Below, piece by piece: positions 20,565 through 45,648 of a stretch of 64,000 nt of DNA. The DNA lies in assembly GCF_005848555.1 (NCBI RefSeq), contig NZ_CP040518.1:3363501-3427500 (forward strand). Reading direction: 5' to 3'. The notes under the pieces are model-generated. The model was not told the origin of the DNA. It did no database searches and saw only the letters and a list, made by a program, of their open reading frames with translations. Source of the stretch: Blautia sp. SC05B48. Its GTDB lineage: Bacteria > Bacillota > Clostridia > Lachnospirales > Lachnospiraceae. The first letter of the stretch is position 1, and each line of letters opens with the position of its first letter. The translations under genes were made by a program, and so were the position numbers.

Positions 20565-20689
20565 AATCGTCTCGTACTATCAATGGAAAAGATGATTGTA
20601 TAGATTTACTATAGGAATTAGAATATATAAATTGTAAGGATATATTGTGTGATATTGCACTTTATATGATAAAAACAAGATAAAAACGC

Positions 20690-20790
20690 AATGCATATTT
20701 TTAAGATATGCTAGAGCTGGTAGGTAGCCCAGCCGTCCTATGTAAATAGGGTAAGTAACCTGCCCCTCCGGGTTGTCCATTCTTTGTTCA
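20690..20790 (+). ncRNA. yjdF (azaaromatic) riboswitch
   Basis: The leader directly before yjdF contains GCTGG (20716-20720) paired with CCAGC (20729-20733), CCTAT (20737-20741) paired with ATAGG (20746-20750), and AACC/GGTT around TGCCCCTCC near 20757-20774. This compact fold just ahead of a DUF2992 gene is the known setting of the yjdF-motif riboswitch, which binds azaaromatic heterocycles and usually controls translation. The Shine-Dalgarno TAGGAGG lies about 25 bases after the fold. I call it on context and stems, not a covariance search. Confidence 0.75.
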
Positions 20791-20812
20791 ATTCATTTTA
20801 GGAGGGATTTTT

Positions 20813-21229
20813 ATGGACAAAACAAATGGAAAACTGACGGTATATTTTGAAGAACCATTTTGGGTAGGCGTATTCGAGCGTATTGAGGATGGTAAATTAT
20901 CTGTAGCAAAGGTAATATTTGGTGCAGAACCAAAAGATTACGAAGTGCAGGAATATATTCAACAATACTATTTCAGTTTGAAATTCAGTCCGGCTGTTGA
21001 AACTGTTGTAAAGGATATAAAAAGAAATCCGAAACGGATGCATCGAGAAGTAAAAAAGCAGACAATAAGAACAGGTATTGGCACAAAATCGCAGCAAGCA
21101 TTGAAATTACAGCAGGAACATAACCAACAGGAGCGTAAAGAGAGAAATCGCAAGAAAAAAGAGGCGAAAGAACAGCGAATGTTTGAATTGAAACAGCAAA
21201 AGAAAAGAGAAAAGCATAAGGGGCATTAA
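20813..21229 (+). CDS. yjdF: YjdF family protein (DUF2992)
   Basis: 138 residues, the normal length. The N-terminal domain (TVYFEEPFWVGVFERIEDGK, then FGAEPKDYEVQEYI) is the YjdF signature. The C-terminal third is a highly basic helix rich in Lys, Arg, Glu and Gln (about 85-138), likely contacting nucleic acid or ribosomes. Its exact function is unknown; it is the usual gene under the yjdF riboswitch and is presumed to respond to toxic aromatic compounds. TAGGAGG precedes the ATG with about 8-base spacing. Confidence 0.92.
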   Translation: MDKTNGKLTVYFEEPFWVGVFERIEDGKLSVAKVIFGAEPKDYEVQEYIQQYYFSLKFSPAVETVVKDIKRNPKRMHREVKKQTIRTGIGTKSQQALKLQQEHNQQERKERNRKKKEAKEQRMFELKQQKKREKHKGH

Positions 21230-38798: not shown

Positions 38799-39029
38799 AT
38801 GAATAAAGTGATTTTAATGGGAAGACTGACAAAGAATCCGGAGATCAAATATGCCGGAAAAGATAATGATATGGCAGTAGCAAGATATACACTTGCGGTA
38901 AATAGAAGATATAAACGTGACGGAGAACAGGAAGCAGATTTTATCTCCTGTGTCACATTTGGAAAGAGTGCAGAGTTTGCACAGAAATATCTTCACAAGG
39001 GAACGAGAATTGTGATCGGCGTCGCATAA
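38799..39029 (+). pseudogene. ssb: Truncated single-stranded DNA-binding protein
   Basis: 76 residues covering only the first two thirds of the OB fold: MNKVILMGRLTKNPEIKYAG, YTLAVNRRYKRDGEQEADFI and FAQKYLHKGTRIV. The frame then ends GVA-stop where the next beta strands should continue. The remaining OB fold and acidic tail are lost. It differs clearly from the SSB at 30762, so it comes from another element. Start ATG 38799 follows GAAAGGACAG. Confidence 0.75.
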
Positions 39030-39559
39030 AAACAGTTTGATATATCAAAAAAGCAATTTTGAAGGCAAAAATAAAATTCCTGTGAAAATTTGGAGATCTT
39101 TACAGAAACAGCTCTGAAATTCTCTTTTATTAGGTATAAGGGATTTATGGAAGTCCTTAAATATACGGAAAAAGGGGAAGACATTTGGAAGAAAAATTGC
39201 AGTTGCTTTGGTTGATATTGATCTTTGTTGATTTTGGGCTTATGTTTATTTCATTTCCAATTTTGATTTATGCAATTATTGCCTGACATAAATGTAAAAA
39301 AGCCTTTCTGTAAGTGCCCTTTTCCGGTGAAAAGACTGGAGGGACATTTACATGTATGCAACAGTTTATGCATATATCCATAGGAATACAAGTAAAATAC
39401 TACCCACTTGCTACTGTTTAAAGACTGTAGTGAAATTGACATTAAAGATCTGGAATGATACGATGAAATTGAACATTTTGCAAGGCAGATTGCACAAAAT
39501 TTTATTCTGATACAAAATCAGAATTTTATACTTTATACCGCGTCTGCGGATCAACCGAC
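39030..39559. other. Non-coding gap after the truncated ssb
   Basis: No gene is supported. There is an inverted repeat TTCTGAT/ATCAGAA near 39504-39522 and an imperfect one near 39316-39350. The region probably contains the promoter of the downstream repeat-protein gene, but I see no convincing -35/-10 pair. Confidence 0.4.
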
Positions 39560-39604
39560 AAAGACACAAAAAGAGTAAAATGGACTCTTGGAGTGTCTTT
39601 TTTT
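39560..39604 (+). terminator. Terminator hairpin in the leader of the nine-module gene
   Basis: AAAGACAC (39560-39567) pairs with GTGTCTTT (39593-39600), with AAGAGT (39571-39576)/ACTCTT (39584-39589) inside, followed by a T run. No gene ends just upstream, so it may attenuate the gene starting at 39668. Confidence 0.7.
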
Positions 39605-39667
39605 GTTTGGCAAAATGTTTTGACATGTATCAGATCCAATTACGCTAAAAGGAGAAAAGAAGTTCTT

Positions 39668-41212
39668 ATGCCACGAAAAATCAGATCAAACTACATGGAG
39701 AAGTTCAAGTTCGTATACAATGGTAGAATTTTTGATAGTAAGCATAAATGCTGTGAATTTTATGGAATTTGTTACCGCAGTGTAATGAGTTATCAAAACA
39801 GACATAAATGTACGACAGAAGAATCAATTACACATTTTATTGAATTGAAAAAAAGTAAAGAAATCATATTCAGAAATCGAAAATGGAACAGTATTAAAAC
39901 CTGTTGCGCATTTTACGATTTAAATGAAGCTTCTGTTAAAACAGATATGTGGAATCGGAAATGTACACCACAGGAAGCAATTGAACGGGCAATCGAATGG
40001 AAAAAAACGCATGAAATCACATATCATGGAGTGAAATATCCATCACTGCCCCAATGCTGTGAAGAACTTGGCATTAATCCTATATCAGTACGTTTATATA
40101 TGGACAATAATGGGGTTTCTTCCACACGTGCGATTACGCATTACATTAAATCCAAAGAGAGACGGGCTTTTACATTTCGGGGAAAAGAATATAAAAACTT
40201 TGCGGAATGTTGTCTTGCATATGGATTGAAGCCAAAGTCAGTAAGTTCTGCAGTTTTTAAGGAGAATCGTTCCCATGCAGAGGTGCTGGAAAAAATTGTC
40301 TCTCATGTGGAAGGATGTATCCCACAAGAAGTAATGGAAAAAAAGGAAATTACTGGAAACTATGTAATTCCCAAAAAAAGGCATCGTGCAAAGGAAGCAT
40401 TCTTTTATGAAAGGGAAAAATATATTTCGCTGGGACAATGTTGTGAGATATATGGAATTAATGAATCCAGTGTACGGGCCAGAGCCTGGAGGACTCATTG
40501 CACATGGGAAGATGCTGTAAAACATTTTATAGAAAAAAGCAGTGTAAACAAGTTGAAAAAGATATTTGTATATAAAGGGAAAGAGTATCAAAGTGTTGCT
40601 GAATGTTGTAGGAAATATGATGTTCGTGCTGCCAGTGTTCGTAATCGCACATCATCAAAGGGATGTAGCCTAGAAGAGGCTTTGGATCACTTTATAATGA
40701 AAAAGAAAGAGATAAAAAAGGGATTTGTATTCCGAGATAAAAGTTATGCAACAATGGAAGAATGCTGTAAAGCTTATGGCGTGAGTGCAAGTAGCGTATC
40801 TTCAAGAAAGTACAGATTAGGGTGCAGCATAGAGGAATCTCTGGAACATTTTATAAAGAATAAAGAAATGATAGAAAAAAGAATACAGAAATTTACATTT
40901 AGAGGAAGGGAATATCCTAGTCTCAGGGCCTGCTGCAAGAAATATGGCATCGAAGATGCGTGTGTAAGGCAGCGGGCCAGGAACCAAAATTGTTCCCTGG
41001 AAGAATCCTTTGAGCATTTTATGACTAGAAAAAGAAAGTATATGCTAAACAATCAGGAGTTTGAATATCGGGGAATCCTTTACCCATCGCTTAAGGAATG
41101 CTGTGAAAAGTTGGAGATAAACAAAAACAGCGTAGTAAGTAAAAGTCGTCGAAGTGGATGCAGCTTACAAGAAGCAGTGGAATATTATGTAAAAAAGCAA
41201 CACACAAAATAA
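39668..41212 (+). CDS. Protein of nine tandem Cys-Cys modules, possible modular nucleic-acid binder
   Basis: 514 residues made almost wholly of nine diverged repeats of about 51-56 residues. The Cys-Cys pair recurs at 28-29, 79-80, 130-131, 181-182, 258-259, 313-314, 366-367, 422-423 and 478-479. The consensus is an aromatic-rich strand (F-x-aromatic-x-G-K-x-Y-x-S), then x3-CC-x2-YGI-x3-SV-x11-C-S-x-EEA-x2-HFI. A third Cys 19 residues after the pair is kept in seven of nine. A 26-residue basic linker splits repeats 4 and 5. Each unit reads as strand, helix, turn, helix, helix, like the small HTH-type modules (NUMOD/IENR1-like) of homing endonucleases, but no nuclease is attached. Start ATG 39668 follows AAAGGAG. 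Confidence 0.7.
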   Translation: MPRKIRSNYMEKFKFVYNGRIFDSKHKCCEFYGICYRSVMSYQNRHKCTTEESITHFIELKKSKEIIFRNRKWNSIKTCCAFYDLNEASVKTDMWNRKCTPQEAIERAIEWKKTHEITYHGVKYPSLPQCCEELGINPISVRLYMDNNGVSSTRAITHYIKSKERRAFTFRGKEYKNFAECCLAYGLKPKSVSSAVFKENRSHAEVLEKIVSHVEGCIPQEVMEKKEITGNYVIPKKRHRAKEAFFYEREKYISLGQCCEIYGINESSVRARAWRTHCTWEDAVKHFIEKSSVNKLKKIFVYKGKEYQSVAECCRKYDVRAASVRNRTSSKGCSLEEALDHFIMKKKEIKKGFVFRDKSYATMEECCKAYGVSASSVSSRKYRLGCSIEESLEHFIKNKEMIEKRIQKFTFRGREYPSLRACCKKYGIEDACVRQRARNQNCSLEESFEHFMTRKRKYMLNNQEFEYRGILYPSLKECCEKLEINKNSVVSKSRRSGCSLQEAVEYYVKKQHTK

Positions 41213-41265
41213 AATTGTATTGACCAGCAGGCAGTCGTTTATAGAATCCATAGGAGAGGAGGAAC

Positions 41266-41296
41266 AGCCAATATCATCTGCCTGCAGATATTGGCT
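41266..41296 (+). repeat. Perfect inverted repeat between ribosome site and xis start
   Basis: AGCCAATATC (41266-41275) is the exact complement of GATATTGGCT (41287-41296), with an 11-base loop. AGGAGAGGAGGAA lies just before it (41252-41264) and the xis ATG just after (41306). If folded, the hairpin would bring the strong ribosome site to about 11 bases from the ATG. Confidence 0.7.
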
Positions 41297-41305
41297 GTAA
41301 TATAT

Positions 41306-41500
41306 ATGATACATAAAAAAACACAAGCAGCAGATAACGATAAGATTCTTATATCGGTCAAGGAAGCCTGTGAACTCACAGGCCTTTCAGAGAAAACCAT
41401 GAGAACTCTTATGAAGAATAATACCTTCATGGTACGAATTGGGCGAAGAACCCTGATTGATAAGAAAAAATTTCAGAAATGGATTGATCGGCAGTCTTGA
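41306..41500 (+). CDS. xis: Excisionase (Xis), MerR/winged-helix type
   Basis: 64 residues from ATG 41306 (TTG 41291 is an alternative within the hairpin). The core ISVKEACELTGLSEKTMRTL with RIGRRTLIDKKKFQKWI matches Tn916-type excisionases, which bind the element's ends and steer the integrase toward excision. The integrase gene follows 78 bases later in the same direction, the normal xis-int order at the end of Tn916-like elements. Confidence 0.88.
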   Translation: MIHKKTQAADNDKILISVKEACELTGLSEKTMRTLMKNNTFMVRIGRRTLIDKKKFQKWIDRQS

Positions 41501-41578: not shown

Positions 41579-42862
41579 ATGGGAAAGAATCTAAAAGGTA
41601 AAGAAATAGGTAAAGGGATTCGCCAAAGAAAAGATGGGCGTTATGAGGCCAGAATCACAATTAAGGGTTCTGGCAAACCGCCTTTTTCGATTTATGGAAC
41701 AAACTTGCAACAGTTGAAAAAACAAAGAAATATGTATTTGACAGAAGTTCTTCCGGGAGTCCCGGGCTTTGATTCGAGTATGTCTGTTTCAAAATGGTAT
41801 GAGAAATGGATGGAACTCTATAAAGTTTTTAAGATCAAAGCAACTACAATAAGAAATTATGAAGATGGTTTTAGAAGAACTGAGGAATACATTGGCTATA
41901 TGAAGCTGGCAGAGGTCAAACCGGAACATATTCTTAGCATGATAAAGAAACTGGAGGACGAGGGATATGCCCGGACTTCAATAATACAATCATTAAGTAT
42001 CGTGCATCAAATGTTTGAGAGGGCAGCTGCCAGTAAAATGATTCCATCGGATCCCACAGCAGATGTTAAGCTTTCTAAAGAGGTACCGGGAGAAACATTG
42101 GCAGAACCAGCAGAAGAAAATTTGGATGCAAAAGAGAATTGTCTTAGTACAGTCGAAAGCCACCGTTTTCTGGAAACTATTGAAGGAAACCGTTACGAGG
42201 AGCTTTTCTTGATCTTAATGCATACGGGAATGCGTATAGGTGAAGCGCTTGCCCTACAATGGAGAGATGTTAATTTTGATGAAAAATATCTCCGTGTATA
42301 CAAAACGTTGAACAGAGTTAAATTGTATTATGACAAGCAGGGAAAGAGACTTACAGAGCCATATTATATTACGCAGATTACATCCCCGAAAAAAAAGAAA
42401 AGTGTCAGACTGATTCCGCTGCCAGATATCGCAATTGAAGCTTTTAGAAACTGGAAAGAAAAACAGGACCAGGACAAAAAAGTATTAGGCAAGAAATGGG
42501 GTGCTGAAAATGAGCTTCTGGAAAAATACCCTGGGCTGATATTTACAACATCTACAGGAATGAGCTATCTTCCTGTCAATGCTGAAGATGAATGCGAACG
42601 AATCAAAAATATTGTAAATAAGCAGGAATCACTGGTGGCCAAAAAAGAGGGTCGGGAAGCAGAAATGTTAGAGGTAACTCCGCATAGTTTTCGTCATACT
42701 TTTGTAACAAGATGTGTTCAGTCTGGAATGGGACCAGCTACAGTAGGTAAGATTAGTGGTCATTCTACTCAGAAAATGACAGAATATTATACGCATCTTG
42801 AACAGGGGTATGTGAAAGATGAATACGAACGGTACGATAAAAAATATGGAAAAGAAAGCTAA
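41579..42862 (+). CDS. int: Tyrosine recombinase (Tn916-type integrase)
   Basis: 427 residues. An N-terminal arm-binding domain (about 1-60) includes RQRKDGRYEARITIKGSGKP. A SAM-like core-binding domain spans about 65-165. The catalytic domain (about 195-420) has R219 in HTGMRIGEAL, H369-x-x-R372 in HSFRHTFVTR, H395 in GHSTQKM and the nucleophile Y404 in EYYTH. All active-site residues are present. Start ATG 41579 follows AGAGGATGG. The gene points toward mutS, whose frame opens 41 bases after the stop, so the element's right end must lie in that interval or within the start of mutS. Confidence 0.93.
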   Translation: MGKNLKGKEIGKGIRQRKDGRYEARITIKGSGKPPFSIYGTNLQQLKKQRNMYLTEVLPGVPGFDSSMSVSKWYEKWMELYKVFKIKATTIRNYEDGFRRTEEYIGYMKLAEVKPEHILSMIKKLEDEGYARTSIIQSLSIVHQMFERAAASKMIPSDPTADVKLSKEVPGETLAEPAEENLDAKENCLSTVESHRFLETIEGNRYEELFLILMHTGMRIGEALALQWRDVNFDEKYLRVYKTLNRVKLYYDKQGKRLTEPYYITQITSPKKKKSVRLIPLPDIAIEAFRNWKEKQDQDKKVLGKKWGAENELLEKYPGLIFTTSTGMSYLPVNAEDECERIKNIVNKQESLVAKKEGREAEMLEVTPHSFRHTFVTRCVQSGMGPATVGKISGHSTQKMTEYYTHLEQGYVKDEYERYDKKYGKES

Positions 42863-42903: not shown

Positions 42904-45648
42904 TTGGAAAAAGCAAGAAACACTGAAGAAGAAAAAAAAATGGGTCAAAAGTGGGTCAAAAAAGAATATGAGGCATCCGCAACCCGCATAAACACTGGGT
43001 TTCCGGCTGATACCAGTACATTATCACCGATGATGAAAGAATACATAAAGACCAAAGAAGAGTACAGCGACTGTATCCTTTTTTACCGTCTGGGCGATTT
43101 TTATGAAATGTTCTTTGAGGATGCACTGACTGCATCCAGGGAACTGGAAATTACACTTACAGGAAAAGACTGCGGACTGGAAGAGAGAGCGCCCATGTGT
43201 GGCGTTCCTTTTCATGCTGCGGAAACTTATATCAACCGGCTGATTGAAAAGGGCTATAAGGTTGCCATCTGCGAACAGGTAGAAGATCCGAAAAAAGCCA
43301 AGGGTCTTGTTAAACGAGAGGTTGTCCGCATTGTCACACCGGGAACTACTCTGGATACCATGTCACTGGACGAGTCCAAAAACAATTATCTGATGTCCAT
43401 TGTCTCCATCGGAGATCATTTTGGCTGTGCAATTGCAGATATCACAACCGGTGACTGTTTTCTCACAGAACTGGATAAACCACAGAAGCTTCTGGATGAG
43501 ATCAATAAATTTACACCTGCAGAGATCATCTGCAACGACGCCTTTCTTTTAAGCGGTGTGGATGTAGCGGATCTGAAGGGGCGTCTTGGGATCTGTGTAT
43601 TTGCTCTGGATCCCTGGTACTTTGACGACCAGCTGTGTCAGAAAACCCTGAAAGAGCATTTTCACGTAGGAAATCTGGAAGGTCTCGGGATCGGAGATTA
43701 TGACAGCGGGATTATTGCCTCCGGTGCACTGTTCCTGTATCTGAAGGAAACACAAAAAACAGCACTTTCCCATATGGCAAGCATCCGCCCGTACTCTGCT
43801 GAAAAATATATGCTCATCGACAGCTCCAGCCGTCGTAACCTTGAGCTTGTGGAAACCATGCGCGAAAAGCAGAAAAGAGGTTCTCTTCTCTGGGTTCTGG
43901 ATAAGACCAAAACCGCCATGGGTGCAAGAACCCTTCGTTCTTATGTGGAACAGCCTCTGATTGATGCAGAGGAAATTGAAAAGAGACTTGGTGCCTTGGA
44001 AGAACTGAACGCAAAACCTATGGAACGTGATGAGATCCGAGAATACTTAAATCCAATCTACGATCTGGAACGTCTGATAAGCCGTATCAGCTATAAATCC
44101 GCCAACCCAAGAGATTTGGTTTCCTTTGCCTCTTCCCTGGAAATGCTGCCGTATATAAAGCAGATCCTTGCAGAATTTAAATCTCCGCTGCTTATGCAGA
44201 TCAACGAAGACATGGATCCACTGTCAGACATTACCGCTCTGATCCGTAATTCCATTGCTGATGATCCGCCCCTTGCCCAGAAGGACGGCGGTATCATTCG
44301 GGAAGGTTATAACGAAGATGTGGATAAATTCCGCCGCTCCCGGACAGATGGAAAGAAGTGGTTATCTGAATTGGAAGCAAGAGAGCGAGAACACACCGGT
44401 ATTAAGAGCCTGAAGATCAAATATAACCGTGTATTCGGCTATTCCCTAGAAGTTACCAACACCTTCAAGGATCTCGTGCCGGAGAACTATATCCGCAAAC
44501 AGACTCTTACCAACGCAGAGCGTTACATCACCCAGGAGCTGAAGGATCTGGAGGATCTGATCCTTGGAGCGGAAGATAAACTTTATGCATTAGAATTTGA
44601 ACTGTTTTCAGATATCCGTGATCAGGTTGGAGCTGAGGTTGTCCGTATCCAGCGTACTGCAAAGGCAGTAGCGGCTCTGGATGTTTTTGCTTCCCTTGCA
44701 CTGGTTGCACAGAGGAATAACTTTGTCCGGCCCAAGATCAATGAAACCGGCCTCATTGATATCCGAAATGGCCGCCACCCGGTTGTGGAACAAATGATTG
44801 AAAACGATATGTTCATTCCAAATGATACGTATCTTGACAACCACAAAAAACGCATCTCCATTATCACAGGACCGAACATGGCCGGAAAATCCACATACAT
44901 GCGCCAGACAGCGCTGATCGTACTGATGGCACAGATCGGAAGCTTTGTTCCTGCGGACAGTGCGAATATCGGTGTGGTTGACCGGATCTTCACCCGTGTG
45001 GGAGCATCCGATGACCTTGCAAGCGGACAGAGTACCTTTATGGTGGAGATGACAGAGGTTGCCAACATTCTTCGTAATGCCACTTCCCGAAGTCTTCTGA
45101 TCCTGGATGAGATCGGACGTGGAACCAGTACCTTTGACGGTCTTTCCATTGCCTGGGCAGTGATCGAACACATCAGCAATACCAAACTCTGCGGCGCCAA
45201 GACCTTATTTGCGACCCATTATCATGAGCTTACCGAACTGGAAGGTAAGCTTTCCGGTGTCAACAACTACTGTATCGCTGTCAAGGAAAAAGGCGACGAC
45301 ATCGTATTTCTGCGTAAGATCGTAAAAGGCGGAGCAGATAAAAGCTATGGTATCCAGGTAGCCAAGCTTGCCGGAGTTCCGGATTCCGTGATCCAGCGTG
45401 CCAAGGAACTGGTAGAGGAGCTCAGTGATGCAGATATCACCGCAGCTGTAAAAGATCTGACCGCTCCAAAGAAAAAGCAGAAAATCACCTACGATCAGGT
45501 AGATATGGCACAGATGTCACTGTTTGACACGGTACAGGACAATGATATCATTGAAGAGATCAAAAACCTGGAGATTGGAAATCTGACACCAATGGAAGCT
45601 TTGAATATTCTCTATAACCTGCAGAACAAAATTAAGAACCGGTGGTGA
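42904..45648 (+). CDS. mutS: DNA mismatch repair protein MutS
   Basis: 914 residues from a TTG at 42904 (AGGAAGAGG 10 bases ahead); ATG 42940 is an alternative giving 902. Family homology begins only at about residue 40 (LSPMMKEYIKTKEEY), so there are about 40 extra N-terminal residues, mostly charged. Domain I mismatch motif LGDFYEMFFEDA, Walker A GPNMAGKSTYMRQ, Walker B LLILDEIGRGTSTFDG and helix-turn-helix end are intact. MutS binds mismatches and recruits MutL. mutL and miaA follow at close spacing. The Tn916-type integrase lies directly upstream in place of the usual upstream neighbour. Confidence 0.95.
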   Translation: MEKARNTEEEKKMGQKWVKKEYEASATRINTGFPADTSTLSPMMKEYIKTKEEYSDCILFYRLGDFYEMFFEDALTASRELEITLTGKDCGLEERAPMCGVPFHAAETYINRLIEKGYKVAICEQVEDPKKAKGLVKREVVRIVTPGTTLDTMSLDESKNNYLMSIVSIGDHFGCAIADITTGDCFLTELDKPQKLLDEINKFTPAEIICNDAFLLSGVDVADLKGRLGICVFALDPWYFDDQLCQKTLKEHFHVGNLEGLGIGDYDSGIIASGALFLYLKETQKTALSHMASIRPYSAEKYMLIDSSSRRNLELVETMREKQKRGSLLWVLDKTKTAMGARTLRSYVEQPLIDAEEIEKRLGALEELNAKPMERDEIREYLNPIYDLERLISRISYKSANPRDLVSFASSLEMLPYIKQILAEFKSPLLMQINEDMDPLSDITALIRNSIADDPPLAQKDGGIIREGYNEDVDKFRRSRTDGKKWLSELEAREREHTGIKSLKIKYNRVFGYSLEVTNTFKDLVPENYIRKQTLTNAERYITQELKDLEDLILGAEDKLYALEFELFSDIRDQVGAEVVRIQRTAKAVAALDVFASLALVAQRNNFVRPKINETGLIDIRNGRHPVVEQMIENDMFIPNDTYLDNHKKRISIITGPNMAGKSTYMRQTALIVLMAQIGSFVPADSANIGVVDRIFTRVGASDDLASGQSTFMVEMTEVANILRNATSRSLLILDEIGRGTSTFDGLSIAWAVIEHISNTKLCGAKTLFATHYHELTELEGKLSGVNNYCIAVKEKGDDIVFLRKIVKGGADKSYGIQVAKLAGVPDSVIQRAKELVEELSDADITAAVKDLTAPKKKQKITYDQVDMAQMSLFDTVQDNDIIEEIKNLEIGNLTPMEALNILYNLQNKIKNRW

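Follow-up and report, generated by a model that had tools for sequence, protein, structure and literature searches.

A nine-unit NUMOD-like array protein encoded in the integrase module of a Blautia integrative element

The window, i.e., the whole analysed stretch of 64,000 nucleotides from Blautia sp. SC05B48, carries at positions 39668-41212 of the forward strand a gene for a protein of 514 residues that consists of nine NUMOD-like units (assigned from its open reading frame, Pfam and orthologues). It starts with ATG at 39668 and ends with a stop codon at 41210-41212, exactly the limits given in the original prediction, which was made from the sequence alone. Downstream on the same strand follow xis (41306-41500, with its start at 41291 or 41306), which encodes an excisionase-like HTH_17 protein recognised by Pfam, PHROG and NCBIfam, a tyrosine integrase (41579-42862; Pfam and PHROG), and a gene at 42904-45648 on the chromosomal flank, which from its translation we take to be mutS. 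The integrase and excisionase alongside the array gene agree with the earlier view that it is carried by an integrative element.

Within the genus, 59 of the 64 genomes have mutS, and miaB lies no more than 1.5 kb from it in 4 of the 30 mutS loci covered. The integrase occurs in 7 of 64 Blautia genomes at E 1e-60 and adjoins mutS in all seven. Beside two of these seven integrases, in G005 and G042, no repeat gene is seen; the contig of G042 ends just upstream. G005 lacks the repeat gene but retains xis, int and the inverted repeat, and transposase-like genes, judged by eye, lie upstream of xis. This inverted repeat lies before xis at 41264-41298 in the window (no strand assigned), and has perfect 12-nt arms (fold z -2.03, equalled in 6 of 200 shuffles); G001, G016 and G005 retain it with paired changes. 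As G005 has the repeat without the array gene, it may serve xis alone. Upstream of the array gene the window contains a truncated SSB gene (38799-39029), at the place where sister elements have PcfJ/PcfK; there, PcfJ was confirmed twice in L008 and PcfK in L009, and Pcf-like ORFs were seen by eye in L009, L010 and L011. The left end of the element and its attachment sites were not found.

The nine units were delimited with a unit HMM, all on the forward strand: units 1 to 4 at 39707-39841, 39860-39994, 40013-40147 and 40166-40300, and units 5 to 9 at 40397-40531, 40562-40696, 40721-40855, 40889-41023 and 41057-41191. A linker of about 33 residues (40292-40390, forward strand, residues 209-241) separates units 4 and 5. 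The HMM finds nine domains with domain E-values from 2.4e-14 to 1.2e-20, a count that is partly circular because the window units are part of the HMM alignment. Each of the nine units contains a Cys-Cys pair, at residues 28, 79, 130, 181, 258, 313, 366, 422 and 478, and 20,000 composition shuffles of the protein give a mean of 1.4 and a maximum of 7 such pairs. Ser-Val is present in eight units, being replaced by Cys-Val in unit 8, and a third Cys in seven, i.e., all except units 3 and 4. It is clear from these counts that the nine repeats had been described correctly, each with Cys-Cys, nearly all with Ser-Val and seven with a third Cys. The spacing given for them stands in part: the first four units are indeed 51 residues apart. 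However, the full series of Cys-Cys intervals, 51, 51, 51, 77, 55, 53, 56 and 56, includes a 77-residue interval with the linker after unit 4 that had been omitted. The protein is basic, with a pI of 9.4 and 102 Lys and Arg versus 63 Asp and Glu.

Residues were counted in an alignment of A2 units that includes 61 of 75 units, after 14 gapped or poor units had been left out. In the commonest frame, Gly, Tyr and Ser precede the first helix, which itself contains C/M-C/A; Tyr-Gly-Ile, S/T-V, Arg, Gly and S-x-E-E-A-L follow. From its sequence, each unit is predicted to have a pair of short strands, a helix-turn-helix and a further helix with Ser-x-Glu-Glu-Ala. The constant frame with variable residues after Ser-Val, first read from the window, is borne out by the unit alignment.

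The cysteines had been proposed to bind metal or to form disulphides. A repeat protein of this kind, with the cysteines as its functional centre, would fit the presence of Cys-Cys in every window unit, and the 16 units of G046 and G432 have Cys at the first and second positions in 14 and 15 cases, respectively. However, only 5 of these 16 units have Cys at the third position. Furthermore, other arrays, which do not belong to the Cys-Cys subfamily, contribute 36 A2 units, and none of these has Cys at the first position (Met 23, Leu 6, Ile 3, Ala 2, Phe 1, Val 1); at the third, one unit has Cys and the others mostly Trp, Met, Leu or Lys. The second position is Cys in 22 of them, Ala in 13 and Val in 1. 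The cysteine positions look like core positions, and since relatives substitute them with mostly hydrophobic residues, a metal or disulphide role is unlikely. We consider it extremely improbable, and this part of the original prediction is not supported.

The closest known modules are the NUMOD modules of homing endonucleases, i.e., PF22083 of I-HmuI, NUMOD1 and the I-TevI DNA-binding domain. The likeness consists of the chain of small modules and of a PF22083 score above cutoff. The window protein matches Pfam PF22083 (I-HmuI_NUMOD-like) with 37.7 bits (cutoff 27), a whole-protein score in which the best stretch covers 19 residues, and the G046 orthologue matches it with 32.4 bits. This supports the likeness to NUMOD modules that had been suggested, with the caveat that whole-protein scores sum over repeats, so that unrelated families pass Pfam cutoffs on arrays; the S. 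equinus array passes a plainly unrelated family too, TENA_THI-4, at 53.6 bits (cutoff 22). An A2 HMM built without I-HmuI ranks I-HmuI as the best non-self protein, weakly (sequence E 0.0067), in a set of ORFs taken from the window and from part of SPO1. In a plasmid array from Alteromonas, with 760 residues and 11 HMM-detected units, NUMOD1 scores 46.3 bits (cutoff 22.8) and I-TevI_DNA-bd 59.5 bits (cutoff 27).

Pfam scans of 18 array proteins, run at E limits from 0.01 to 5, gave PF22083 in two and NUMOD1 or I-TevI_DNA-bd above cutoff in one, among the matches listed. The Cys-Cys array of G432 has no match to PF22083, NUMOD1 or I-TevI_DNA-bd in its Pfam scan, and its sole PHROG match is phrog_597, 'DNA binding protein', at 2.9e-4. 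NCBIfam has no match for the window protein. A second known group comprises phrog_1065 and the PVL ORF-50-like phage proteins (phrog_201, PF07768). The window protein matches both PHROGs, phrog_1065 (function unknown) at 8.8e-27 and phrog_201 at 1e-6; these profiles have 192 and 291 positions, and their functions are unknown or mislabelled. PF07768 matches relatives of the window protein and is not listed for the protein itself. Profile searches against solved structures with the window protein, Vpf497 (described below), the unit profile and the Alteromonas array gave no useful match; in one such profile search no homing endonuclease was listed, and its low E-values belong to short matches to designed repeats. 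We infer the NUMOD-like helix-turn-helix fold from sequence resemblance, backed by the architectures of relatives. Compared with the NUMOD modules of homing endonucleases, the window protein is distinct in having nine units without a nuclease, an extra SxEEA segment and a Cys-Cys variant of the core.

The window protein matches no catalytic nuclease family in Pfam or NCBIfam, and its PHROG matches fall on the repeats, in agreement with the initial observation that the chain carries no nuclease. Neither was a nuclease recognised in the two genes between the array gene and mutS. No effector family was identified in the window protein, in the arrays of S. equinus and Alteromonas or in the two arrays scanned from pCY360; these last two have short Cys/His tails, as judged by eye.

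Links between such units and nucleases, which had been put forward as a check, do exist, as some relatives carry endonuclease-type domains. In L032, the units are followed by an endonuclease-type domain at residues 336-460, which matches phrog_559 ('HNH endonuclease', 2.4e-12) and phrog_9084 ('homing endonuclease', 6.6e-10). Its tail alone matches Pfam DUF2726 at 6.7e-5, below cutoff; one solved-structure match of the tail, at 1.8e-4, had no stretch that passes alone and was not trusted. Vpf497 of the Vibrio filamentous phage VfO3K6 (L017:5528-7021), which we presume to be ORF8 of f237, the pandemic marker, is likewise an array of units like those of the window protein (six by HMM; 22% identity). 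Unlike the window protein, it ends in a T5orf172/GIY-YIG-like C-terminal domain (phrog_681 at 1e-8; T5orf172 at 19.8 bits, cutoff 20). One review calls f237 ORF8 a putative adherence protein (PMC3858888). With this architecture, Vpf497 resembles a DNA protein of the homing-endonuclease type more than an adhesin.

Two further architectures are found on different contigs of G365. L086:475-1677 combines units with an AP2 match of 24.2 bits, below the cutoff of 33.3, and has regions matching HNH-endonuclease PHROGs (phrog_374 at 3.4e-44), its HNH-associated repeats being rich in Cys; in L095:1489-1989 two units are joined to an XRE helix-turn-helix (5e-10). As side observations, the units of L036:8489-10135 (G499) are followed by a C-terminal YfbR-like HD domain (4.5e-64; YfbR-like 5'-deoxynucleotidase), and the Butyrivibrio plasmid pCY360 (L016 and L115; 327-336 kb of the record) has 35 unit matches across neighbouring genes just downstream of cas12a.

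The endonuclease-type domains of these relatives raise the alternative that the window protein is a homing-endonuclease relic that has lost its nuclease, or one half of a split enzyme with the nuclease acting in trans. A broken array copy beside an intact one in G432 is also consistent with this. However, the ORF is intact at 514-565 residues in the window genome and four relatives, and dN/dS is 0.10 in both the window-G004 and the window-G001 comparison, values that are approximate because dS is 0.96 and 1.4, respectively. The array protein is intact and under purifying selection. Further, no nuclease was recognised in the protein or in the two genes toward mutS, the other genes of the window having been judged by eye. 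We therefore regard a relic or a split enzyme as unlikely.

The array gene was found in 5 of 145 related genomes searched, its own included. Over the whole chain, the orthologues are 83% (G004), 76% (G001 and G016) and about 30% (G046) identical to the window protein. The array proteins of G001 and G016 are 97.7% identical to each other, despite mutS regions that are 85% and 97% identical to that of the window, which points to transfer between species. Within the protein, the bin that contains the linker (residues 206-241) has the highest dN/dS in the window-G004 (0.26) and window-G001 (0.49) comparisons and is level with unit 4 in G004-G001 (0.21); it does not have the highest dN.

Units 1 to 9 map in order onto the units of G004 and G001. 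The window units are also collinear with those of G046 (p 0.006) and G432 (p 0.022), and such collinearity is absent for three non-orthologous arrays (p 0.66, 0.83 and 0.94), none of these p values being corrected for multiple tests. The presumed contact residues, +12 to +15, have a between-unit entropy of 2.06-2.73 bits. Their conservation between orthologues is 0.85 versus 0.72 in other variable columns (column permutation p = 0.057), which is suggestive only. The original prediction would have counted conservation of these residues among orthologues against a nucleic-acid reader. In our view this argument is inverted, because in a reader of a single fixed site the units should differ from each other and the orthologues should conserve them. 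The residues do vary between units, and between orthologues there is a weak tendency to conservation.

We suggest that the window protein is a nuclease-free array of the homing-endonuclease type that would bind a single long site on DNA and is probably a regulator encoded by the element, similar to CapR; it is our favoured reading, held with moderate confidence and drawn from sequence comparisons. Each unit would use the second helix of its helix-turn-helix, with the residues after Ser-Val, to contact a few bases, and the nine units together would bind one long, specific site. With no cutter attached, occupancy itself would be the effect, and the protein would serve the integrative element as a repressor or an accessory factor. 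We infer in this way not only the fold but also binding to DNA rather than RNA, the single long site, repression and the probable target. NUMOD modules are described as DNA readers in a review (PMC3943268), where NUMOD-bearing enzymes are given site contacts of up to 30 bp.

The working analogy is CapR of the PLE satellites, in which a homing-endonuclease DNA-binding part is used without a nuclease by a mobile element. PMC10448857 describes CapR as a repressor derived from homing-endonuclease DNA-binding domains and its module as a CxxC...CxC zinc finger, and it likens DNA-binding domains that occur in repeats to beads on a string. Unlike CapR, the window protein has CC plus one C per unit and lacks the CxxC...CxC motif. 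A CapR-like zinc finger may be present in the Cys-rich part of L086, as seen by eye only.

For such a regulator the simplest targets would be its own promoter region and/or the adjoining xis-int side. A noncoding block at 39418-39507 (forward strand), a candidate operator, aligns to the region upstream of the G046 gene with a score that only one shuffle in 1000 reaches; a similar match is absent upstream of the G432 gene, where 366 of 500 shuffles do as well. The block contains a promoter-like site, TTGACA-17-TACGAT at 39436-39464 on the forward strand, whose counterpart in G046 is TTGACA-17-TATCAT; promoter-like sites in this region of the window are at chance level, with 2 found versus a shuffle mean of 2.9. 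Self-regulation is our first choice of target because the promoter block is conserved. Among 64 Blautia genomes the region upstream of the array gene is found in full at the four known copies, and four others match over 32 to 42 bases only.

The leader ahead of the start codon is strongly conserved. Over the 145 aligned positions that directly precede the ATG there are 7 differences to G004 and 6 to G001, against 11 of 38 and 12 of 38, respectively, at third positions within codon columns 1 to 40. Between the promoter and the ATG lies an inverted repeat with a T run, attenuator-like, at 39553-39607 (forward strand; repeat search), and G046 has a 15-pair terminator-like hairpin upstream of its array gene with a sequence other than that of the window. 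From these hairpins and the strongly conserved leader it could be speculated that the protein binds RNA, or its own leader, and so controls an attenuator. However, the window hairpin is not significant (fold z -1.44, 17 of 200 shuffles as good) and gives no hit in the terminator scan, the leader may respond to something else, and PMC3943268 presents NUMOD modules as readers of DNA. Binding to the leader is in our view a very unlikely explanation.

The main rival to self-regulation is that the array is aimed at the DNA of a competing element or phage, whose transcription or replication would be blocked by binding. CapR provides a precedent, as this satellite repressor acts on the capsid genes of its phage according to PMC10448857. 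Arrays are found on phages, plasmids and integrative elements. The sister elements have the PcfJ- and PcfK-like genes upstream, DUF5688 genes lie near the G046 and pCY360 arrays, and a borderline ArdA match (26.9 bits, cutoff 27) lies near an array of G545. All this is compatible with a role in competition. However, the orthologues keep their unit order, with no visible sign of racing, and we consider a competitor as the target possible, if rather doubtful.

If our reading of a nuclease-free array at one long site is extended from this protein to a class, the nuclease-free NUMOD arrays of mobile elements might be modular readers like TALE, in which the unit helix after Ser-Val reads a fixed number of bases. 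The idea of a constant frame with variable contact residues is shared with the TALE and PPR repeat proteins, whose unit lengths differ from that of the window protein. The Pfam scan of the window protein lists 10 families with E-values of up to 5, none of which is a TALE or PPR family. We regard such a class as a long shot; if it were real, the site would be predictable from, and reprogrammable by, the order of the units.

The module itself is already known, and the variant consists of nine in a row, without a nuclease, in an integrase module. Our searches of open-licence PMC papers did not turn up nuclease-free NUMOD arrays in print. Homing-endonuclease modules are usually treated as parts of nucleases. 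Long, intact arrays without a cutter, which reach 11 HMM-detected units among the relatives found here, would be a natural source of proteins that bind long DNA sites and a test bed for whether helix-turn-helix modules can be chained in a predictable way. Like CapR, they would be an example of mobile elements that put the targeting part of a cutter to regulatory use.

Arrays are rare within the genomes searched, since at E 1e-6 the A2 unit profile finds matches in 8 of the 299 family genomes covered, the window genome included, and at E 1e-9 in 1 of 398 genomes of the phylum, which is the window genome itself. The phrog_1065 profile finds 2 of 146 genomes of the order and the A1 profile 7 of 397 of the family, again with the window genome included in both; the other six A1 genomes are G432, with its Cys-Cys array, and five whose arrays are not of the Cys-Cys type. 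One relative (L149) was found in the viral contigs scanned.

Two minor observations may be added. In G432 the two copies of the array gene are about 17 kb apart, one intact (L030:8745-10034) and one broken (L031:8079-8516), and each lies beside a similar pair of small genes that look toxin-antitoxin-like by eye; near the intact copy are a translation-factor-like GTPase, by eye perhaps of the ribosomal-protection type, and a truncated integrase. Elsewhere in the window, an azaaromatic (yjdF) riboswitch at 20670-20796 (68 bits) precedes an ORF of 138 residues at 20813-21229.
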